DNA of 64,000 bases from an uncultured Burkholderiales bacterium. GTDB lineage: Bacteria; Pseudomonadota; Gammaproteobacteria; Burkholderiales; Burkholderiaceae_C. The stretch's first letter is position 1; the number at the start of each line of letters is the position of its first letter. The DNA lies in contig CAMFGY010000013.1 of NCBI GenBank assembly GCA_945952065.1, positions 1 to 64,000 on the forward strand, written 5' to 3'. This document shows, piece after piece, positions 7,991-18,152 of the stretch. Below the pieces are notes generated by a model. It saw only the letters and a list, made by a program, of their open reading frames with translations. It was not told the origin of the DNA and did not search any database. Both the position numbers and the translations under genes were made by a program.

Positions 7991-9289
7991 TCACTCCAAC
8001 AAGGCCTGCGCAAACTCGCGCGCATTGAAGGTCTGCAAGTCTTCCAGCTTCTCACCCACGCCGATGAAGTACACGGGGATGGCGCGCTCGCGCGCAATCG
8101 CCGCCAGCACGCCGCCCTTGGCGGTGCCGTCCAGCTTGGTGACGACCAAGCCCGTCAGCCCCAGGGCATCATCAAAAGCCTTGACTTGGCTGAGCGCGTT
8201 CTGGCCGGTGTTGCCGTCCACCACCAACAAGACCTCATGCGGCGCGCCCTCTTGGGCCTTGCCAATCACGCGCTTGATTTTCTTGAGCTCTTCCATCAGA
8301 TGCAGCTGGGTCGGCAAACGCCCGGCGGTATCGGCCAACACCACATCGCAGCCGCGCGCTCGGCCCGCGGACACCGCATCAAACGTGACGGCCGAAGGGT
8401 CGCCGCCCTCTTGGCTGATGATTTGCACCTGGGTGCGATCGGCCCAAACAGCCAATTGCTCGCGCGCCGCAGCCCGGAAGGTGTCGGCGGCGGCCAGCAG
8501 TACTTTTTGATCCGCCTCGGCCAAGTGACGGGTCAGCTTGCCGATGCTGGTGGTCTTGCCCGCACCATTCACGCCCACCACCATCATCACCGTGGGGCTG
8601 TATTGCCCCACCGTCAGCGGCTTTTCCAATGGGCGCAGCAAATCCGCCAGCGCATCGACCAACAAGCCTCGCACCGCGCGGGGTTCGCTCGCCTTGGCTT
8701 CTTTGACGCGGCGCTTCAAATCGGCCAACAGATGTTCGGTCGCCTTGACGCCGGTGTCGGCCATCAACAAGGCCTCTTCCAGCTCTTCATACAAAGCCTC
8801 GTCGATTTGAGTGCCGGTGAAGACTTGGGCAATGCTGGAGCCCGTCTTGCGCAGGCCTTGACGCAGCTTGTCCATCCAACTGCGGCGCGGCTCGGGCGGC
8901 GCCGAGGCAGCGGCAAGAGGCGCAGCCGGCACGGGTGCAGGTGCAGGTGCGGGAGCAAACACTGGCGCGGCGTGCACGGGCGGCGGTAACGAAACAGACG
9001 GCGTTTGCGGCACGGTGGGAGAAGAGGCCGCGGCAGGACTTGCTGGCAACGGCACCGGCGCTACTGGCGGCGTCACGGGCACCGATGGTTCCACGCTCGG
9101 CGTCGTTGCGGCGGCGCCATCACTGTTCGCCGGCGGAGTCTCAGTGTGCGGAGCGGACACCGAAGCAATACCCGGCGCAGGCATCGGCACTGGGCTCGGC
9201 GCGGGGGTCGGTGCCGGCGCGGCTACAGGTGCGGGTTCAGGCGCGGGCGCGGGCGCTGAACCAAACTTTTTCTTAAAAAAACTGAACAT
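7991..9289 (-). CDS. ftsY: Signal recognition particle receptor FtsY
   Basis: SRP receptor GTPase, 432 aa, which docks the Ffh–ribosome complex at the inner membrane. The ATG at 9287-9289 (MFSFFKKKFG) gives the usual short amphipathic N-terminus; a longer frame upstream is unlikely. Residues about 12-125 are an Ala/Pro-rich low-complexity linker that replaces the acidic A domain of E. coli FtsY. The NG domain follows, with VGVNGAGKTTSIGKL, VVLADTAGRLPTQ and TKLDGTAKGG. It is convergent with ffh, so both SRP GTPases lie side by side. Confidence 0.96.
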   Translation of the reverse strand: MFSFFKKKFGSAPAPAPEPAPVAAPAPTPAPSPVPMPAPGIASVSAPHTETPPANSDGAAATTPSVEPSVPVTPPVAPVPLPASPAAASSPTVPQTPSVSLPPPVHAAPVFAPAPAPAPVPAAPLAAASAPPEPRRSWMDKLRQGLRKTGSSIAQVFTGTQIDEALYEELEEALLMADTGVKATEHLLADLKRRVKEAKASEPRAVRGLLVDALADLLRPLEKPLTVGQYSPTVMMVVGVNGAGKTTSIGKLTRHLAEADQKVLLAAADTFRAAAREQLAVWADRTQVQIISQEGGDPSAVTFDAVSAGRARGCDVVLADTAGRLPTQLHLMEELKKIKRVIGKAQEGAPHEVLLVVDGNTGQNALSQVKAFDDALGLTGLVVTKLDGTAKGGVLAAIARERAIPVYFIGVGEKLEDLQTFNAREFAQALLE

Positions 9290-9560
9290 CAATTGGCCTG
9301 AGAGGTGTGCCGCCAGCAGCAAGGAGTCACTCGCCGTCTGAACAAGGCACATGATTTGCGATCTGAGCCCTGGATGCCAAGCAATCCAAGCCTCAAATTC
9401 GGCAGCAGCGCACGGTAGACCGAGCCAAAAGCTCAAAACACGGCGCCATCGAGGTGTATCGTCTGGGCAGAATCATAAACAAGCCGCCGTAGCGCTGGTC
9501 TGCACAGCAGCCCACAGCAGCACAACGCGGCCCAGCCCAACACCCGGAAGAGCTGATTTG

Positions 9561-10457
9561 ATGCGAATCCTCAATGCCGAATCCACGGCCGAGCTCCTGC
9601 CCTACGAGCGCCTGATTCCCGCCGTGGCACAAGCCATGCTGGACTTGCGCGCTGGCTTGATCAACGCCAGCCCGCGCTCGGTGCTGCCCTTGCCCGATGG
9701 CGGCAGCTACTTGGCCATGCCATGCACCGATGATCACTTCGCCGTCACCAAACTGGTGGCCGTGACCCCGGCCAATCGCGAGCGAGGCCAGCCCACCATC
9801 CAAGGCCGCGTCTTGGTCAGCAAGGCCGTGACCGGCGAAGCCCTGATCATTCTCGACGGCATGGTTGTCACCGCGCGCAGAACGGCCGCCGTCACGCTGC
9901 TGGGCATCGAAACCTTGCTCAAGCAGGCCCCAGCATCTGTGGTGCTCATCGGCACGGGCGCCCAAGCGCTCACCCATGCCCTGGCCATGGGCGAACGCTG
10001 GCCCGGCGTGCAATTGCGCTGTGTGGGCCGAGCCCGCCCGCAAAGCGAAGCCTTTGCCGCCAGCTTGAAGGCCCAGGGATTGAACGCCCGCGTCCTGCCC
10101 TTGGAACATGCCCTGGAGGACGCCAGCGTCGTCTTGACCGCCACCACCTCTTTGACCGCCGTGTTGCCTGAGCGCATTGACACCGCGACCTTGGTGGTCG
10201 GCATTGGCAGCTTCACGCCTCAAATGGCCGAGCTCCCCGCCGCGCTGGTGCGCAGCCGCCAAGTGTGGGTGGACGACTTGGACGGCGCCCGGCATGAAGC
10301 CGGCGATCTGATTCAAGCCGAGCTGGACTGGAGCCGGGTTCACCCGCTGGCCCAAGCACTCGACACGCCCGACTCGGTGCATGCCCCAGCGCTCTACAAG
10401 ACCGTCGGCCACGCCGCCTGGGACCTCGCCGCGGTACGCACGGCCCTGGCCGAATAA
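9561..10457 (+). CDS. Ornithine cyclodeaminase / delta1-pyrroline-2-carboxylate reductase family protein
   Basis: Protein of 298 aa in the ornithine cyclodeaminase/mu-crystallin family. The N-terminal half carries substrate-binding elements (ASPRSVLPLPDGG, FAVTKLVAVTPANRERG, RTAAVTLLGIETLL). The C-terminal Rossmann fold has SVVLIGTGAQALTHALAM for NAD(P)H, and VWVDDLDGARHEAGDL lies near the active site. The conserved GQPTIQGRVLVSKAVTGE pattern fits the delta1-pyrroline/piperideine-2-carboxylate reductases of D-amino acid and hydroxyproline breakdown better than true cyclodeaminases, but the substrate cannot be fixed from sequence. The ATG at 9561 is chosen for the family N-terminus (MRILNAESTAELL) and a GGAAG ribosome site. 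It is a single gene, read towards tRNA-Met. Confidence 0.8.
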   Translation: MRILNAESTAELLPYERLIPAVAQAMLDLRAGLINASPRSVLPLPDGGSYLAMPCTDDHFAVTKLVAVTPANRERGQPTIQGRVLVSKAVTGEALIILDGMVVTARRTAAVTLLGIETLLKQAPASVVLIGTGAQALTHALAMGERWPGVQLRCVGRARPQSEAFAASLKAQGLNARVLPLEHALEDASVVLTATTSLTAVLPERIDTATLVVGIGSFTPQMAELPAALVRSRQVWVDDLDGARHEAGDLIQAELDWSRVHPLAQALDTPDSVHAPALYKTVGHAAWDLAAVRTALAE

Positions 10458-10475
10458 AACTTTTTTCAAAAAGTC

Positions 10476-10505
10476 TTGCAATCAACAAAAATACGATGCT
10501 ATAGT
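10476..10505 (+). promoter_or_regulatory. Promoter of tRNA-Met
   Basis: TTGCAA (10476-10481) and TATAGT (10500-10505) are 18 bp apart. The -10 ends 11 bp before the mature tRNA and is followed by a GC-containing discriminator (AGAGGGCTTGA). The context GCTATAGTAGNGGGCTT recurs inside ispE. Confidence 0.7.
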
Positions 10506-10516
10506 AGAGGGCTTGA

Positions 10517-10593
<77 letters not shown>

Positions 10594-10626
10594 AATAATG
10601 TCCTTGTGCCCCAGGTACTTAGACAG

Positions 10627-10653
10627 AAAAGCCACCCTAGCGGCGGCTTTTTG
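10627..10653 (+). terminator. Terminator downstream of tRNA-Met
   Basis: AAAAGCCACC and GGCGGCTTTTT form a stem with one mismatch around a CTAGC loop and end in a T run, about 35 bp after the tRNA CCA. Confidence 0.7.
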
Positions 10654-10840
10654 CTTTCCAGTCGGCCAATCGGATGTAAGGGCGGGTGTAAGACGTTTGG
10701 CTGAGGCCGTTTCAAGCGCTTCCACTACTTTTTGATCTTCGCAATCAACGCGCCGCGTTGACATCAGCCAGTGCGAGGTGCGCCCAGCTCAGTGAGAGTC
10801 AGCCAAGATTGCATGGCTCGCGCGCATCTACAATCCCCCC

Positions 10841-10968
10841 GCCGCCTCGACAAGGTCTTAATTTTGTCTGCGTTAACGCAGACATTGCAGTTTGGTAGCC
10901 CCGCTATCTCAGCGTTACCTCTAGCTAAGCGTACCTACGTTGGTAAAGGTGAAAGTCGTCGGGGCGGC
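10841..10968 (+). ncRNA. Candidate retron msr–msd RNA
   Basis: An 11-bp inverted repeat (a1 GCCGCCTCGAC at 10841-10851, a2 GTCGGGGCGGC at 10958-10968; 10 Watson-Crick pairs and one G-T) encloses 106 nt and ends 8 nt before the reverse transcriptase frame, the standard a1/a2 arrangement of retrons. Inside are a perfect 7-bp hairpin GTCTGCGTTAACGCAGAC (10866-10883), as expected in msr, and a nested set of stems between 10895 and 10946 (GGTAGC/GTTACC; TTACC/GGTAA; TACC/GGTA), plausible for msd. The branching guanosine and the msr/msd border could not be assigned. The lower GC of the inner part contrasts with the flanking core genome. Confidence 0.72.
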
Positions 10969-10976
10969 ACCTAACT

Positions 10977-12749
10977 TTGGTGAAAGCAACAATTCTGCCC
11001 TTCAAAGAGATCACTGAGCTTCTAGTGCGCACCGATGTGAACACCATGTCAGGCGAGGCGTTTGGCCGCAGCTACGCAGACATCAAGAAGCTTCTCTACC
11101 CCCGCCCACGCTATCGCGCTTTCTTGCTGCGCAAGCGACGGGGAGGAATGCGGGTCATTCACGAGCCCCGCCTCACGGTCAAGGTCTTGCAGAATAAGGC
11201 CCTGGAATTTCTCAAAAAATATGGTGCAGGGCCAAAGCCATGTGCACATGGCTTTGTTGAAGACCGAAGCACGCTGACGAACGCAAGAACCCACTGGGAT
11301 CAGCGTCCGCGCTTTGTTCTCAATCTCGACTTGCAAGATTTCTTTCCGTCTATCACTTTCTATCGGGTTCGCGGCCTGCTGCAAAAAGGCCCATTCAACT
11401 TTTCCCATGAGGTTGCTACCGTTCTTGCGCAACTTTGCACGTTAGATGGCATCTTGCCGCAAGGCGCGCCGACCTCCCCGTTCATAGCGAATCTGGTCTG
11501 CCGCGGACTGGACAGAGACTTGATGGCGCTTGCCCGCAGGCATCGCAGTACATACACCCGATACGCAGACGATCTGACTTTCTCGTTCTCAGTGCGGGAT
11601 GCATCGCGCCTTCCATCGAGTCTATGCACTTACGAGGGCGGGGTGTTGACGATTGGGGAAGAGTTGAAGGCGCTCATACAGAGCCATAGTTTCAAGATTC
11701 ACGATGGGAAGACTCGTATTTCGTCCGTGCATAGTCGACAGGAGGTCACGGGCATCACCATCAATGCATTCCCGAATGTTCCCCGGAAGTTCGTCGACAA
11801 GATTCGAGGGGCACTACACGCATGGGAAAGATGGGGTTACGACGGAGCCCAGGCAGAGTGGGAGAGACGAATCAAAGACACCGTCGCCAAGGGGATTTCA
11901 GACAAAGCATGGCAACGACAAACACGAAGTAGTAGACCGCCAAGGTTGTCCAACCTCATATGGGGACGGCTCCTATATCTGCGCATGGTGAGGGGCCGAG
12001 AAGACGCTCTCTACACGCGCCTGGCAGAGCGCTACAACGGATTGGTAATCCAGGCCAAAACGCTTGATGAGAAATTTCGCGCCCCAAAGCTGCCCGTAAG
12101 CGCCGTTGTCAATGGTCAGGCTGACGTTCAACGCGCGACGTACGTTGTCGAGTGGATGGGCGATGCACTGCTGCCCGGGGGGCTCAGTACAGAGCCCGTC
12201 GGCGCTCAGGGCACAGCATTTGGATACCGGCGCAATGACTTGTTAGTTACCTGCGATCACATCTTTAGGTTCGAGTTGATGAATGAGCACAGGGACTTTA
12301 CTGCCGTCGCAGAAGCGCAAATCACAGTATCCATGCCTTCAAGCGCGCGCACATGGGATGCTCGACTTATTCACCGTGACGTAGATAGGGATTTGGCCGT
12401 ACTGCAGATCACGGGCGACTTGACAGGGCTCCGGCACTTTTCGGGTGTAGAGGCTCCAGCCACAAGGCACCAACCAGCATGGCTTATTGGTTTTCCGAAC
12501 TGGACTCGTGGGCGCGATGTTGATGTTCAACGAACATCTGTAACTAATGCATTTACCAGAGGCGGTTTACGCCGTCTTGATACCTCCGCACTAATCCGTC
12601 AAGGGAACAGCGGCGGGCCACTCGTTGACGAGAGCTTCCGTGTGATTGGCGTTGCTGAACAAGGTGCCACCCAGGAAACAGGAAACAACGAATGCTTGTG
12701 CACTACTGAACTAGACGCCTGGCTAGCGACGTTAGGCGCAGTTATGTAG
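10977..12749 (+). CDS. Retron reverse transcriptase fused to a trypsin-like serine protease
   Basis: Protein of 590 aa. Residues 1-320 are a retron-type reverse transcriptase: region X NAxxH (NARTH at 102-106), motif A LNLDLQDFFPS near 115-125, QGAPTSP near 162, catalytic YADD at 196-199 and region Y VTG near 257, followed by NVPRKFVDKIRGAL. NAxxH and VTG distinguish retron enzymes from group II intron RTs. Residues about 405-590 form a trypsin-like protease fold with His in VTCDHIF (~428), Asp in RDLAVLQI (~472) and Ser in RQGNSGGPLV (~545). The RT would make msDNA from the RNA just upstream, and the protease is the likely effector of an abortive anti-phage response. The start is TTG 10977 or GTG 10980; no ribosome site is obvious. 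It is convergent with the next two genes. RT–protease fusions have been listed in retron surveys (from memory); targets are unknown to me. Confidence 0.9.
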   Translation: MVKATILPFKEITELLVRTDVNTMSGEAFGRSYADIKKLLYPRPRYRAFLLRKRRGGMRVIHEPRLTVKVLQNKALEFLKKYGAGPKPCAHGFVEDRSTLTNARTHWDQRPRFVLNLDLQDFFPSITFYRVRGLLQKGPFNFSHEVATVLAQLCTLDGILPQGAPTSPFIANLVCRGLDRDLMALARRHRSTYTRYADDLTFSFSVRDASRLPSSLCTYEGGVLTIGEELKALIQSHSFKIHDGKTRISSVHSRQEVTGITINAFPNVPRKFVDKIRGALHAWERWGYDGAQAEWERRIKDTVAKGISDKAWQRQTRSSRPPRLSNLIWGRLLYLRMVRGREDALYTRLAERYNGLVIQAKTLDEKFRAPKLPVSAVVNGQADVQRATYVVEWMGDALLPGGLSTEPVGAQGTAFGYRRNDLLVTCDHIFRFELMNEHRDFTAVAEAQITVSMPSSARTWDARLIHRDVDRDLAVLQITGDLTGLRHFSGVEAPATRHQPAWLIGFPNWTRGRDVDVQRTSVTNAFTRGGLRRLDTSALIRQGNSGGPLVDESFRVIGVAEQGATQETGNNECLCTTELDAWLATLGAVM

Positions 12750-12787
12750 TCGTTGGTTTCAGTCCAGTTGCAATCGCGGACCGAAGC

Positions 12788-13552
12788 TCAATGGTCAGCT
12801 CGCACCTCTGCGGCCAGCATACTGGCTAATGAGTTCTGGCTGAAAACCACTGTCCGCCCCGTGTAATACCCCGCCCGCTCGAACTGGCGCTTACCCACTG
12901 CCTCTTGGCTCTCAGCGATGGCAAGCACCATGCCCGGCTTGCTCTCAGCACGATACTGCATATGGATAACTTCGGCCTCCAGCAGCCGAGCAGGCGTTGA
13001 CGCCGCAATAACTATGAGCGGACGCTTGGAGCGCAACACATGATCGGCCCGCAACCCGCCAGCAATCGGCAACTCAACATCTGTGTCAGCCACAAGGCCG
13101 ATACTAGCTGCGACCTCAGTAATGATCGCAGCCAATTGGGCCTTGAAATCACTGGTGCCCTTCCGGTCAGTTTTGGATGTGGCAATCGCGAATAGCTGTT
13201 GGGCCGCTTCGGCCACCCGAAATACATACGGGACAACTAGGCGCTCGTCTTTGGCAAATGCACATAGCGATTCATCGGAATCGAAATGCACAGGGGAGTT
13301 CAAACGAAGGTCTGCTGCCCAACGATCTACGAAGATTGACTCAACATCCCCGCCATTCAAAGTGGAATAGAGAGCAGCATCTCCACTTTCATCAATCCGA
13401 TAGCCGCCATCGCTGGGCCGAACGCGAACGACTACACGGTCATTGCTGCCGCTGTACTCCAAGGGCGTAACGATACGCTGCACACTTTGTTCGTCGGCGT
13501 AAACCTCGAACAAACCGCAAATGTCTCGCTTGATATTCAGCGCGGTTTCCAT
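12788..13552 (-). CDS. DUF1828-like protein with C-terminal DUF1829-like region
   Basis: Protein of 254 aa. The N-terminal third (ICGLFEVYADEQSVQRIVTP, VVVRVRPSDGGYRIDESGD, ALYSTLNGGD) has the alternating strand pattern and the D-G near the ygry/DDG-type turn of DUF1828. The rest, with VELPIAGGLRADHVLRS and RPLIVIAASTPARLLEAEV, resembles DUF1829, for which no experimental role is known to me. No signal peptide or membrane helix is present. It overlaps the upstream gene by 16 bp on the same strand, so they form one unit, and it is tail-to-tail with the retron (38 bp apart). Such proteins often sit in accessory islands; a defence or toxin-antitoxin-like role is only inference. Confidence 0.6.
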   Translation of the reverse strand: METALNIKRDICGLFEVYADEQSVQRIVTPLEYSGSNDRVVVRVRPSDGGYRIDESGDAALYSTLNGGDVESIFVDRWAADLRLNSPVHFDSDESLCAFAKDERLVVPYVFRVAEAAQQLFAIATSKTDRKGTSDFKAQLAAIITEVAASIGLVADTDVELPIAGGLRADHVLRSKRPLIVIAASTPARLLEAEVIHMQYRAESKPGMVLAIAESQEAVGKRQFERAGYYTGRTVVFSQNSLASMLAAEVRADH

Positions 13553-14043
13553 AGTCCAGCCTGTGCGTCGTTAGGTGCTTCGCCCAGTGTGATCCCGCAA
13601 GCGTTACTGAAGACATTGATGAGCTGAATCCGATCCTGCTGTTTCCGTGGATCAAGGCGCGCATCCGTCTTCATGTCCAACTCAATTGCCTGCGGTAGTA
13701 GGCGATCAGTGTACGACTGGGTTGCCTTGCATGGTGTCTTGCAATGGAACCCTTTGTGACTTGGGTGCCAATGAAACTCAAATAGCGGGCTGAGCGCCCC
13801 CCCTGCAAGCCGGCACATCATGTACCCATAAAACGCCGAGTCTGTAAGCAGCTCACCATCCTTCGCGAGAAACAGAACGCAGTGCGTGGCGGATATGTCG
13901 ATAAGCCCGGTACTCGAGACACGGCCTCCACCTACCCGCGCAAACGGCTTCGGCAGCGTGCCTCGCTTCAGTGGCTTGAACTCTGGCACCTGCTGAAGCC
14001 ACTTAGGTGAGAGCTTGTGTTTGTGAAGATCGCGTGGATTCAT
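13537..14043 (-). CDS. Hypothetical protein with His/Cys cluster
   Basis: Protein of 168 aa with no family I can name. It is basic at the N-terminus (DLHKHKLSPKWLQQ), has a central hydrophobic stretch (THCVLFLAKDGELL) and a striking FHWHPSHKGFHCKTPCK cluster of four His and two Cys that could bind metal. No signal peptide or membrane helix. It is the first gene of a two-gene unit with the DUF1828-like gene, whose start it overlaps by 16 bp. ATG at 14041-14043. Codon use is mixed, as in the retron, pointing to foreign origin. A metal-dependent nuclease-like or regulator role is possible but unsupported. Confidence 0.6.
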   Translation of the reverse strand: MNPRDLHKHKLSPKWLQQVPEFKPLKRGTLPKPFARVGGGRVSSTGLIDISATHCVLFLAKDGELLTDSAFYGYMMCRLAGGALSPLFEFHWHPSHKGFHCKTPCKATQSYTDRLLPQAIELDMKTDARLDPRKQQDRIQLINVFSNACGITLGEAPNDAQAGLWKPR

Positions 14044-14666
14044 GGCCTCCCTGACCTACAACCCGTTTTATTGCCCCGTACTATAGGCTGCGCCTTGCTA
14101 CTGTGTATCGGTGGCTGCCCAGGTGCCTCGCTGTTTAGGCCCGACAGACAAAACAGACATCTAAGGCCACGGAACCCCGCAGGGTTGACGGGGGGCCAGG
14201 GCGTCCAGCCCGCAGCCCGCAAGCGCGCATCCGCCCCATGCGGATCAAGTGAGCGCCGGGGGAGCCGACGCGCGCTGGTGGCCCCAGCCTCCAGAGTTCC
14301 GCCCACGGGACGGCAGCAAGTTGGGGGGCGCAGCCCCGGCGCCCAGCGCAGCGCGCGGGCATCCTGGCCGAGTCAAGCCTCGCGCAGACCGCCGGCGCAA
14401 GCCGGAGCCAGCGACGCGTCCAGCGGCAAAGGGCGGGCAGGATGCCCGCGCGCGAAGCGCGGCGCCCGTATTCTGGGACACTGGCAGCGTCCAGCTGACT
14501 GAGCCGCCGTCCCGCAGTCCAGGCGGGCGAAGAGGAGGCGCTGGCCTGCAGCTTCAGCGGCTTCGCTCCCTCTGTTCGCCCCAGGGCGCACAGGGGTGCG
14601 AACACGAGAGTGTCATAGGGCCGCGTCCGCCCTATACCGTGATGTCGAAACCTCGATTGACAACTC
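14044..14666. other. GC-rich stretch without a convincing gene
   Basis: About 620 bp, much more GC-rich than the genes on its left. Overlapping open frames exist on both strands, but their products are Arg/Ala/Pro-rich composition artefacts. Several short inverted repeats occur, for example GCGGGCATCCTG with CAGGATGCCCGC (14359-14370 and 14438-14449), which could fold over some 70 bp. The right end carries an oriT-like motif described separately. It may be a decayed plasmid mobilisation region. Confidence 0.4.
14583..14635 (-). other. Possible oriT-like segment
   Basis: On the reverse strand TGCGCCCT (14583-14590) matches the core of the IncQ/IncP-type nick region as I remember it. It is preceded by small inverted repeats: ACAC/GTGT around GAGA (14601-14612) and a perfect ATAGGG/CCCTAT hairpin (14615-14635). 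It lies just upstream of a MobC/replication-relaxation-like gene, the place where oriT sits in mobilisable plasmids. No relaxase gene was found. The match is short and could be chance. Confidence 0.28.
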
Positions 14667-15464
14667 ATGCATCAGAAGGACGGGCGGCTTGTCGCCAGGG
14701 AAAGCGAGGTGAAGGTGCTTCGCGCTCTTCACCGCTTCGGCTGGCTTCGCACGCGTGACCTGGCCGCGTTGGCGTGGCGCCCGTGGCAGACCGTCCCCAC
14801 CAAGGCGCCAGACTTGACGCCGCTTGTACCAAGTGCCTCGCACTGGCGCATGGCGCAGCGCACGCTGCGCCGCCTGGTTGGGGATCGACAAGTGCTCAGG
14901 GCCAACGGGCCGGACGGCAGCGTCATCTACACGCTCGCCGAAGCCGGCGCTGAGCGCTTGCGCCACTTCGGTATCCCAGCCTCGTCCGGTAAAGACATGG
15001 TGAGGCGGTCCAGCGCCAACCAGTTCCGCCATCGCTGCATCGCAAACGAGGTCGCAATCGCTGCGCTTGCCGCCGGTTTCCGCGTCTCGACTGAACGCGA
15101 GGTCGCCCAAGGCCGTTGGCCGGGCGGCGATGCAGGGATCGCGGGCAAGAAGCCCGACGTGCTTCTGCAGGCCAATGGGCTGGTTTGGTGGATCGAGGTA
15201 GAGCGCAGCCGTAAAAACCAGAAGGACTACGCCAACCTGCTGCAGTGGCTCACGAAGATTGGTCGAAGCGCCATACACGCCACCGAGGCTGTGACCCTTG
15301 GGAAAGGGCTCAGTTGGGGCGGGATCGTCTTCATCTGCACGCCGACATTCCGCGCCAAGCTTTTGCGCGACCTTGCCGCAGCCGGGTGGTCTGGCAGCGC
15401 GCTCAAGCGCCTTCTGTCCTTCGAAACGGAGCTATACAAGTTCGAGAACATGCTCTTCGCATGA
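14667..15464 (+). CDS. MobC / replication-relaxation-like protein
   Basis: Protein of 265 aa. The N-terminal 110 residues look like a winged helix (ESEVKVLRALHRFGWLRTRD, MAQRTLRRLVGDRQVLRA, VIYTLAEAGAERLRHFG), as in the plasmid replication-relaxation/MobC families. The C-terminal half has KKPDVLLQANGL followed by WWIEVERSRKNQKDY, a PD-(D/E)xK-like arrangement (D, then E-x-E/R-K), and LLQWL. Such proteins assist DNA relaxation or mobilisation of plasmids and ICEs. The ATG overlaps no gene; the ribosome site is weak. It is isolated, with no mobA or replication gene beside it, so it may be a remnant of a mobilisable element. Function is inferred from family pattern only. Confidence 0.6.
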   Translation: MHQKDGRLVARESEVKVLRALHRFGWLRTRDLAALAWRPWQTVPTKAPDLTPLVPSASHWRMAQRTLRRLVGDRQVLRANGPDGSVIYTLAEAGAERLRHFGIPASSGKDMVRRSSANQFRHRCIANEVAIAALAAGFRVSTEREVAQGRWPGGDAGIAGKKPDVLLQANGLVWWIEVERSRKNQKDYANLLQWLTKIGRSAIHATEAVTLGKGLSWGGIVFICTPTFRAKLLRDLAAAGWSGSALKRLLSFETELYKFENMLFA

Positions 15465-15850
15465 ACACCGGATGCCGCACAGTCGCAGCAGCCGCATATA
15501 GGCCATGGGTGGGGAGTTGTGCCGGCCTCCCTGCATACGACCCCTTCTCGTTCGCCAATCAGCGGACCGTGCTTGGCGCGCCGCCGGCTCTTGCACGTAT
15601 TTCGGGTCATCTCTCAGAGGAGCAACTTGCAAGAGGAAACACTGGGTACGCAGGTAGACTACGTTTCGTCAGGCCCTAAAGAAGGATCAACAAATGCGCG
15701 CGCGAGGGCCGCACTTACCCAGGCGCAGCCCGCCGCCTAAATTGGTAGTGCAGGGCCGCAGGTGCAGCCATCAGGGCGCGCAGGCCGCGAGAGTTCCCGG
15801 CGGGGAGTTCTGAGCGATCCGGCCCTGCCCTTTTGAGCGCACAAGGGATT
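15465..15850. other. Intergenic region in the island, nothing recognised
   Basis: About 390 bp after the MobC-like gene. Only short overlapping frames with no family resemblance are present. No tRNA, terminator of clear shape or insertion sequence end was seen. Confidence 0.35.
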
Positions 15851-15997
15851 GAAAGGTATTGCTCTAACGCAGCACGCCACCAGCGCCAGCAAGTCAGACT
15901 CACCAGCCCAACACAGGTCAAAAAACAGGGGCAATCCGGCAAATACTGGCACCAAACTGGCACCAGCACCCAAAACAAGAAGCGCAGCCCGAGATGA
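15851..15997 (+). pseudogene. Possible C-terminal remnant of a tyrosine integrase
   Basis: One forward frame ends in KYWHQTGTSTQNKK and a stop at 15995-15997. Tails of the YWHQTGT type are, from memory, seen at the ends of some Burkholderiales phage-type integrases, whose genes usually end close to a tRNA 3' end, as here (33 bp from tRNA-Ile2). None of the catalytic Arg/His/Tyr motifs remain, so at best this is a fragment. It may equally be chance. Confidence 0.25.
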
Positions 15998-16030
15998 ATT
16001 TCTCTAAGCGCTTGATTTATTTGGGTATTT

Positions 16031-16107
16031 TGGTAGGCCGTGCAGGACTTGAACCTGCGACCAAAGGATTATGAGTCCTCTGCTCTAACCAACTGAGCTA
16101 ACGGCCC
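16031..16107 (-). tRNA. tRNA-Ile2 (CAU, lysidine type)
   Basis: Reverse-strand cloverleaf: acceptor GGGCCGT pairs with ACGGCCT (G-T first pair), D-arm GCTC...GAGC, anticodon CAT at 16071-16073, T-arm GCAGG TTCAAGT CCTGC, encoded CCA at 16031-16033. The TTGGTCG variable/T-arm junction resembles the tRNA-Ile that TilS modifies to read AUA, so Ile is preferred over Met. It is the right boundary of the island. Confidence 0.85.
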
Positions 16108-16175
16108 CCGAGGGGATTTTGTGCTTCCGGCCTTGCACCGGAAGGGCGCGATTGTATAGGGCTTGCGAAGTCGGT

Positions 16176-17195
16176 CTATTTTTGCGACAGCGCTTGGCTG
16201 ATCATGCGCGAGGTGATGTCGACGATTTGAATCATGCGGTCATAGGCCATGCGGGTGGGGCCGATGACGCCCAGGGTGCCGACCAATTGGCCATTGACCT
16301 CATACGGCGCCGAGACGATGGAGAGCTCTTCAAAGGGCACGACTTGGCTCTCACCGCCGATGTAGATGCGCACACCTTCTGCGCGGCTGGACACATCGAG
16401 CAAGCGCATCAGTTGGGTCTTTTGCTCGAACATATCGAACAGGCGCCGCAAGCTGCCCATATCGTTACTGAAATCTTGCACGGTGAGCAGATTGCGCTCG
16501 CCGGAAATCACCACGCGCTCTTGCTCGTCCACCATGGCTTCGGTGCCGGCTTGCACGGCCGCGTTCATCAGATTGGCGATCTCACCGCGCAGCTCGTCGA
16601 CCTCGGACTTGAGCCGCTCGCGCACCGCCTCCAGCGTCAAGCCTGCGTAATGGGCGTTGAGGCGGTTGCTGGCCTCGGCCAACTCGGCCTGGGTCAGGTC
16701 TTGCGCGGTGAAGATGACGCGGTTTTGCACATCGCCATCGGGCGAGACCATGATGACCAGCACCCGTCGATCACCGAGCCGCAGGAACTCGATGTGGTGA
16801 AACACACTGGGCTTGCGCGGCGCAGTCACCACGCCCACAAAATTCGACAAGTTCGACAGCAGCTGCGCAGCGCTGGCGATGACCCGCTGCGGCTGGTCCG
16901 GCTGCAGCTGCGTTTCGATCGGCCGGGCATCAGCGCCCACCAAGCCGGGCTGCGCCGTCAACATGGTGTCGACAAAAAGCCGGTAGCCGCGCGGCGTGGG
17001 GATGCGGCCCGCGCTGGTGTGCGGGCTGGCAATCAGGCCGAGCTCTTCCAGGTCGGCCATCACATTGCGGATGGTTGCAGGGCTGAGCTCCAAGCCGGAG
17101 GCCTTGGACAGCGTGCGGGAACCGACCGGCTGGCCGTCCGCGATATAGCGTTCGACCAGGGTCTTCAACAGGGATTTGGATCGCTCGTCGAGCAT
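16176..17195 (-). CDS. hrcA: Heat-inducible transcription repressor HrcA
   Basis: Repressor of 339 aa that binds CIRCE elements upstream of groESL/dnaKJ operons and is kept active by GroEL. The N-terminal winged helix shows [20 protein letters not shown] and [20 protein letters not shown], followed by [19 protein letters not shown], typical of HrcA. A GAF-like middle domain and the C-terminal end ([17 protein letters not shown]) complete the family length. No CIRCE inverted repeat (TTAGCACTC...GAGTGCTAA) is visible next to the gene, so autoregulation is not supported here. It is divergent from nadK with an 81-bp gap. Confidence 0.96.
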
Positions 17196-17276
17196 GGTGG
17201 CATTGTAAGTTCAGGGCCTGTTCGAGGCATTGAGACTTCTACGGACTGACATAGGCCTGTGGTGTAATTCTTCCCC

Positions 17277-18152
17277 ATGGCCAAACGTTTCCAACATGTG
17301 GCAATTGTGGGCAAGCATCAAGCCCGCGGCATACGCCCGCTTCTTGAAGAAATTGCCGAATTCGTGACGAGGCAAGGTCTTGACGTTTACCTGGAACGCG
17401 AGACTGCGCTGAACACCGGCATCACGGCATTTGATGCCCTCTCAAATGATGAGTTAGGTGCTCAATGTGATGTGGCCATCGTCGTCGGTGGCGATGGCAC
17501 CATGCTGGGCTTTGCCCGCGAGATTGCCCGCTTTGGCGTGCCCCTGGTCGGCATCAACCAAGGTCGCTTGGGCTTCATCACCGACATCTCGATTGAAAAG
17601 TACAGCGAGGCCTTGGCGCCCATCCTGGCGGGCGACTATGAGATGGAGCAGCGCCCCATGCTCGAAGGCGGCGTCTGGCGCGACGGCGAGAGTATTTTTG
17701 AAGGCTTGGCACTGAACGATGTGGTGGTGAGCCGCGGCGCCACGGCCAGCATGGTGGAGCTGCGCATCGATGTGGGCGACGATTTTGTCGCCAATATGCG
17801 GGCCGACGGCGTGATTGTGGCCTCGCCCACCGGCTCAACCGCCTACTCCTTGTCGGCCGGCGGCCCCATCATGCACCCCAGCATTGCTGGCTGGGTGCTG
17901 GTGCCCATCGCTTCGCACACCTTGTCCAACCGCCCCATCGTCTTGCCCGACACCGGCGAGGTCCGCATGGAGATCGTGGCCGGCCGCGACGCCAGCGTTA
18001 ACTTTGATATGCAAAGCCTCGCCAGCCTCTTGCACGGCGACCGCATCAGCGTGCGCCGCTCGGCCCACAAAGTCTGTTTCCTGCACCCCAAGGGCTGGAG
18101 CTATTACGCCACCTTGCGCCGCAAGCTGCGCTGGTACGAGGGGGTCAGCTGA
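17277..18152 (+). CDS. nadK: NAD kinase
   Basis: ATP-dependent NAD kinase of 291 aa, the source of NADP in the cytoplasm. It has the diagnostic [13 protein letters not shown] (GGDG) motif, the [10 protein letters not shown] loop, the [10 protein letters not shown] segment and the [22 protein letters not shown] nucleotide site. It begins [19 protein letters not shown], the usual betaproteobacterial N-terminus. Its TGA overlaps the recN ATG by one base, so nadK–recN–rapZ form a tightly coupled operon. Confidence 0.97.

Follow-up and report, generated by a model that had tools for sequence, protein, structure and literature searches.

Retrons in which the reverse transcriptase (RT) and the effector share a single chain include type I-C, represented by Eco2 (Ec67), whose effector is a Toprim domain described as an RNase (PMC12405507). 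According to that study, the Eco2 msd is 67 bases long, RT-Toprim assembles with msDNA into a self-inhibiting trimer that the phage protein DenB triggers, and Toprim truncations are toxic while the RT-Toprim fusion is not. A commentary describes msDNA in retrons generally as a sensor that keeps effectors off (PMC13158370). Trypsin-like domains are likewise found on other defence enzymes: in trypsin-fused HamA, Avs1a and LmuA, as described in PMC12799240, the protease is N-terminal and an MBL nuclease gene lies upstream.

Retrons of type XI combine an RT and a C-terminal trypsin-like domain in one gene and are represented in PADLOC-DB 2023 by two models, PDLC02959 and PDLC02960. The type was reportedly defined by Mestre et al. 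in 2020. Searches of open-access full text turned up no experimental study of these retrons, a scope that makes this absence weak.

Here we analyzed a 64,000-nucleotide stretch of DNA (the window; positions 1 to 64,000 of contig CAMFGY010000013.1, assembly GCA_945952065.1) from an uncultured Burkholderiales bacterium. Judged by its sequence, the locus described below is a type XI retron, that is, a member of a catalogued single-gene class made up of an RNA (~130 nt in this case) and one RT-trypsin polypeptide, and this kind of element is probably anti-phage. Its domain plan is that of the type XI models. It resembles type I-C in joining RT and effector in a single chain, in having an a1/a2 stem and one msr stem-loop, and in the position of the RNA directly upstream of the RT; unlike Eco2, it carries a protease and not a Toprim effector. 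Unlike the protease of HamA, Avs1a and LmuA, its protease is C-terminal, on an RT, with no recurrent partner gene. The class itself was already catalogued, and what is new here is the located noncoding RNA of a type XI member, together with a priming anomaly.

The RT-trypsin gene and its retron type

The fusion gene runs on the forward strand from position 10977 (TTG start) or 10980 (GTG start) to 12749, as one open reading frame of 590 codons encoding 590 aa. Its RT domain lies at 11130–11762 (Pfam RVT_1, 2.6e-17, residues 52–262) and contains the motifs NAxxH (NARTH, residues 102–106, positions 11280–11294), YADD (residues 196–199, 11562–11573) and VTG (residues 257–259, 11745–11753). A trypsin-like protease domain is found at 12210–12653 (Pfam Trypsin_2, 2.5e-16, residues 412–559), with catalytic codons for His428 (12258–12260), Asp472 (12390–12392) and Ser545 (12609–12611), the serine standing in a GNSGGP motif that begins at residue 543. 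A first-pass annotation, made from the sequence without database searches, had listed the NAxxH, YADD and VTG motifs and a His-Asp-Ser set with GNSGGP, and each was found where it had been placed; its claim that RT and protease share one polypeptide is borne out by the single 590-aa frame with both Pfam domains.

When the window protein was aligned with 37 RT-trypsin homologues, His428 and Asp472 were invariant in all 38 rows. Ser545 was likewise invariant (38/38), but this column is conserved partly by selection, because the homologues had been picked by a G.SG[GS] pattern. The best PDB sequence match of the protein is the Retron Ec67 (Eco2) protein (1.7e-38), and the protease domain matches HtrA/Deg-like proteases in the PDB weakly by sequence (best 7.3e-7). 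Compared with type XI in general, the clade of the window has an extra motif, G[NH][ND]ECLC, located after the protease Ser region in 6/6 window-clade proteins and absent from the 8 other rows of alignment A1.

Comparison with PADLOC places the protein in type XI. Of 67 families matched at E <= 0.1, RT-Protease_XI ranked first (518.3 bits, E 6.1e-156), and the match is near full-length, with protein residues 24–584 aligned to profile positions 17–509 of 510. The next classes, RT-TIR_XII (347.5 bits) and RT-Toprim_I-C (283.6 bits), matched the RT part only, and the type XII effector is a TIR domain, not a protease. Searching the RT part alone gave the same class order, with XI best at 397 bits versus 349 for XII.

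The relationships of the RT were assessed with a quick maximum-likelihood tree of 98 RT rows, including four group II intron RTs, with SH-aLRT as its only branch support. The window falls in a clade of six RT-trypsins (SH-aLRT 100) together with sequences from a Ralstonia sp. (L024), a Rhodocyclaceae bacterium (L025) and Trinickia (L026) and from two viral contigs (L104 and L108). This clade is nested in a larger group with RT-Toprim, RT-TIR, other RT-trypsins and further fusions, and the window RT is separated from the four group II intron RTs (SH-aLRT 100). RT-trypsins do not form one clade in the tree: parsimony counts 10 label changes, of which the starred branches force only one. The tree carries a long-branch warning, its Toprim and TIR labels are motif calls made by script, and its rows are drawn from outside the experimentally classified reference RTs.

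The first-pass annotation had read the locus as a retron, and this reading agrees with the RT-Protease_XI match, with the grouping alongside RT-Toprim and RT-TIR, and with the a1/msr/msd/a2-like RNA directly upstream. Its remark that a retron effector seldom shares a chain with the RT is not supported: among 3,395 retron or retron-like RTs, ~32.8% (about 33%) are reported to carry fused effectors, a protease being named among these (PMC12405507), and PADLOC devotes two models to this class.

A predicted noncoding RNA upstream of the gene

Fold, covariation and a covariance model (R1) together predict a retron noncoding RNA (msr-msd) at positions 10838–10970 on the forward strand, as are the other window features in this section. 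Inverted repeat a1 (GCCGCCUCGAC, 10841–10851) forms 11 pairs, one of them G-U, with a2 (GUCGGGGCGGC, 10958–10968), which stops 8 or 11 nt short of the start codon. The interval first annotated as the retron opens exactly where a1 does, at 10841, and so spans the whole element. The sequence CUUAA at 10857–10861, a possible priming region, is invariant in 6/6 sequences of the close clade (alignment A4). It is followed by an msr hairpin (10865–10884) with an 8-bp stem and, in the window, a UUAA loop. The stretch between the msr hairpin and a2 (10885–10957) presumably holds the 3' tail of msr and the template for msd, with putative boundaries, and includes a GGUGAAAG motif (10948–10955) that is largely conserved in the close clade.

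A -10-like hexamer, TACAAT (10829–10834), stands six bases before a1, and a TANAAT hexamer precedes a1 in 6/6 close-clade sequences. As evidence for a -10 element this is weak, because the hexamers were found by eye and a consensus promoter scan gave no sigma-70 site upstream of a1; the promoter and terminator scans returned fewer matches than in shuffles.

The predicted RNA (10838–10970) has a minimum free energy of -53.2 kcal/mol (z -4.17), and 0/200 shuffles were as stable. For five relatives, z was -4.98, -3.07, -2.01, -1.56 and -2.15, with 0, 0, 6, 13 and 5 of 200 shuffles as stable, so that fold energies are weak in three of them (L026, 6/200; L104, 13/200; L108, 5/200 at least as stable).

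Covariation was assessed on the window and these five relatives (A4). Nine of 18 pairs had changed on both sides, and 93.5% of cells were paired; none of 500 shuffles equalled the alignment in pairing, in two-sided changes or in covariation score, and 79/500 reached its number of further pair types. Two-sided changes affect 6 of 11 pairs in the a1/a2 helix (90.9% of cells paired) and 3 of 7 in the msr hairpin helix (97.6%). When the partner was slid by 1–3 columns, pairing fell to 30–42%, a control that is biased toward the structure because the structure was derived from the same six sequences. Sequence and covariation show the a1/a2 stem and the msr hairpin of this predicted RNA.

Model R1 scored 125.9 bits on the window RNA, which is one of its training sequences. 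In the window's own genome, its sole match at E <= 0.001 was 10838–10970 (150 of 710 first-look candidates scored). The model is narrow: across 69 sources it recovered only the six training loci and four weak, partial reverse-strand matches, and it did not reach into other type XI clades. An Rfam search of window positions 9000–18000 at E up to 1 gave no retron family, its output being two tRNAs plus four weak matches, of which three fall on the tRNAs.

For Eco2, a long hairpin of DNA has been described (PMC12405507). Folded as DNA, the presumed msd of the window and four close relatives showed no excess structure (z -0.43, 0.34, -0.80, -0.30 and 1.81). This test is uninformative either way, because the RT-Toprim control gave none either (median z -0.54, 4/43 at <= -2).

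The a1/a2 helix across type XI loci

Candidate loci were defined as open reading frames of >300 aa in which Y[AV]DD occurs and a G.SG[GS] motif lies beyond residue 300. Of 48 such candidates, 47 carry a trypsin domain by a test profile grown from the same frames; the one that failed, L144, has a Toprim motif. With the duplicates L012, L116 and L154 removed, 44 loci were compared, one of which is the window (L001). Two loci outside the 44 were missed by the pattern: L073, trypsin-like with a different Ser motif, and L023, in which the gene is apparently cut by an insertion sequence. The latter, on a Phaeobacter plasmid (NZ_CP081276.1), is a type XI-like gene without GxSGG; at its 3' end it runs into an annotated IS3 transposase.

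Near the assumed RT start, the best a1/a2-like helix given by a fixed search scored 31.8 on average in the 44 loci versus 20.4 (sd 3.1) in shuffles. A score of at least 30 was reached by 33/44 RT-trypsin loci, compared with 0/132 in-gene windows, 4/44 windows 600 nt upstream and 0.9% of shuffles, and in 31/44 loci the helix outscored every one of the 30 shuffles made from that locus. The window itself scored 30 and was topped by at least one of its 30 shuffles; because these reach 37, the case for a1/a2 in the window rests on conservation in its relatives. An earlier run with other settings had 29/48 loci beating all 20 shuffles, including the window (30 versus 26). The a1 and a2 sequences vary between clades yet stay complementary. 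Because an automatic, ungapped search placed their ends, individual positions should be read as approximate; for at least L026 and L058 it picked a different helix.

In four Pseudomonas-type loci (L027, L029, L093 and L105), a2 extends past the assumed RT start and ends 12–13 nt inside the open reading frame, so that processing of the RNA might compete with its translation there.

The priming nucleotide

In described retrons, the stem holds the priming guanosine or ends just before it, usually as TAGC, with variants that include CAGA (Eco2) and ACGC; Retron-Sen1 is noted as having no apparent priming G (PMC6868368). The position directly after a1 sets type XI apart from type I-C. With the same script, a G was found there in 42/44 non-identical RT-Toprim RNAs, in agreement with the reported branching of Eco2 at rG15 (PMC12405507), versus 14/40 in type XI. 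No single offset among the first 12 nt after a1 has G in >16/40 type XI RNAs, and 5/40 are without G in the first 8 nt. These counts cover helices scoring at least 24 and non-identical RNAs only (40/44 type XI, 44/54 RT-Toprim, 8/13 TIR), in sets that hold many close relatives; membership of the Toprim and TIR sets was decided by motif pattern.

The sequence after a1 differs by clade. The window clade has CUUAA (6/6), and the gamma clade has UUUAA, C or U, UUUC (9/9). The alpha-proteobacterial clade has UCGCA (9/9), with G kept, and the Pseudomonas clade has GG (5/5); because these two keep it, type XI as a whole has not abandoned G. L106 and L115 lack G altogether in the segment that starts with the final 8 nt of a1 and runs up to the msr hairpin.

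These patterns allow the speculation, unlikely in our estimation, that beta/gamma type XI retrons, the window included, prime not from the usual G after a1 but from another nucleotide, perhaps an A of the invariant UUAA. If so, their RT-DNA would carry a different branch, or none. Against this, the window does have guanosines, G10854 and G10855, just upstream of CUUAA; they are candidate priming nucleotides that are not conserved in the close clade. Retron-Sen1, moreover, had already been noted without an apparent G (PMC6868368).

Proposed mode of action

By analogy with Eco2, the locus is likely to be a protease retron gated by its RNA and RT-DNA and freed by a phage trigger, with the result that the infected cell is killed or arrested. 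The RT would bind its RNA and prime near the a1/a2 stem, making a short RT-DNA that may start near GACTTTCACC. The RNA/RT-DNA complex would then keep the C-terminal protease inactive, as in the related single-chain RT-Toprim of Eco2, until a phage protein cuts, modifies or strips the RT-DNA. Once freed, the protease might cleave a host or phage protein encoded elsewhere, and the infected cell would die or stop before phage release. A protease effector under the control of reverse-transcribed DNA would represent a distinct type of switch among retrons. Two questions are raised by this locus: what the protease targets without an evident partner gene, and how the window clade primes its DNA. The RNA coordinates (a1, a2 and hairpin) and the covariance model make the element testable.

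The region between the two domains bears on how the protease might be activated. The linker, at about residues 360–400, differs in length between homologues in the alignment, as might be expected if the protease cleaved itself there, freeing itself or the RT, and if this self-processing were the activating step. No conserved linker motif stood out by eye in the alignment, however, and the Eco2 passages of PMC12405507 report no cleavage of the fusion. We regard activation by self-cleavage as unlikely and favor release of the protease from RNA/RT-DNA control.

Genomic surroundings

If the protease acted on a dedicated substrate, a partner gene might accompany it, as in trypsin-fused HamA and Avs with their MBL nuclease partner. 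PMC12799240 shows that trypsin domains on other defence enzymes activate a zymogen nuclease in this way, and the window protease domain weakly matches PADLOC PDC-M35A (26.8 bits) and LmuA (18.4 bits). The neighborhood speaks against such an arrangement here. No flanking family was found by blastp (E 1e-5) in >4/44 loci, within flanks of 1.5 to 5 kb or less and at a sensitivity that misses distant homologues; no partner substrate is evident for that reason. In the window, the gene upstream of the retron is an ornithine cyclodeaminase relative, the two downstream genes match no family, and by sequence similarity there is no adjacent MBL-fold nuclease gene (family profiles were compared with the genes of the window, and the flanks of the other loci by blastp clustering). 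Activation of a zymogen nuclease is accordingly judged quite improbable.

The two downstream genes overlap each other and are convergent with the retron (12788–13552 and 13537–14043, reverse strand; 254 and 168 aa), in the same variable region. Neither has a counterpart in Pfam, PADLOC, NCBIfam or PHROGs under the cut-offs applied, and tblastn gave no relative at the other loci compared. The pair was considered as part of the system and rejected, having no match in relatives or in the four family libraries.

The retron lies in a variable region of the genome. Among the matches listed for nine sampled congeners (30 of about 100–140 first-look candidates scored per genome), none falls between window positions 10702 and 15733. 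The left flank is present in 8/9, the exception being G686, which is 76% complete. The two flanks are on one contig in G297 (~250 kb apart), G690 (171 kb) and G689 (2.9 Mb), and on different contigs in the other congeners. It is from this absence of matches, and from flanks that are far apart or on different contigs, that we place the retron in a variable region. Near the edge of that region, ARAGORN identified a tRNA-Met (CAT) gene at 10517–10593 on the forward strand, and a1 starts 248 nt past its end. A search for an attachment site as a copy of the tRNA 3' end, with up to 3 mismatches, found only the tRNA itself.

Distribution of RT-trypsins

RT-trypsins are sparsely distributed. With PDLC02959 at E <= 1e-90 and at most four first-look candidates scored in each genome, the family sample contained one only in the window's own genome (1/299), and three other hits carry a Toprim motif. 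In the phylum sample, RT-trypsins were found in the same genome and in L011, L012 and L013 (4/398), and four other hits carry a Toprim motif. With 80% query coverage as the minimum, matches were found in 4/72,556 plasmid records (E 1e-30) and in 0/50,697 phage records (E 1e-20). Viral contigs yielded 14 RT-trypsins among 80 loci retained of 339 confirmed; two of the 14 are copies of L061 and L020. In the genome-contig scan, a single-protein query gave no match and an alignment query did match, the best 80 of 557 being kept.

Such sparseness (0/298 for the other family-sample genomes at this threshold) could be taken to mean that the locus is a decayed or housekeeping RT with no anti-phage role. 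This we consider very improbable: the frame is intact, catalytic residues are conserved in both domains, the RNA shows compensatory changes, and the gene sits in a variable region with relatives on plasmids and viral contigs.

Other RTs observed in the course of the analysis include a second retron-like RT in the same genome (307 aa; L002/L184, G000 contig C2:97494–98159, reverse strand), for which the best PADLOC model is RT_III-A (128.5 bits). Two RTs of the same group as the window RT carry an Mrr-type restriction endonuclease domain (L035:4836–6440 and L040:2326–3903; Pfam 2.8e-6 and 2.1e-6). In Chryseobacterium gregarium (L101:4836–6908), an RT shares its chain with a conflict-associated histidine kinase domain (PF22561, 1.2e-53). 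A Chloroflexota metagenome-assembled genome (L032:4869–6482) encodes a further RT from the group of the window RT, with a Schlafen AlbA_2 domain as its fusion partner (Pfam 2.5e-12), a combination absent from the retron type names in the PADLOC outputs.
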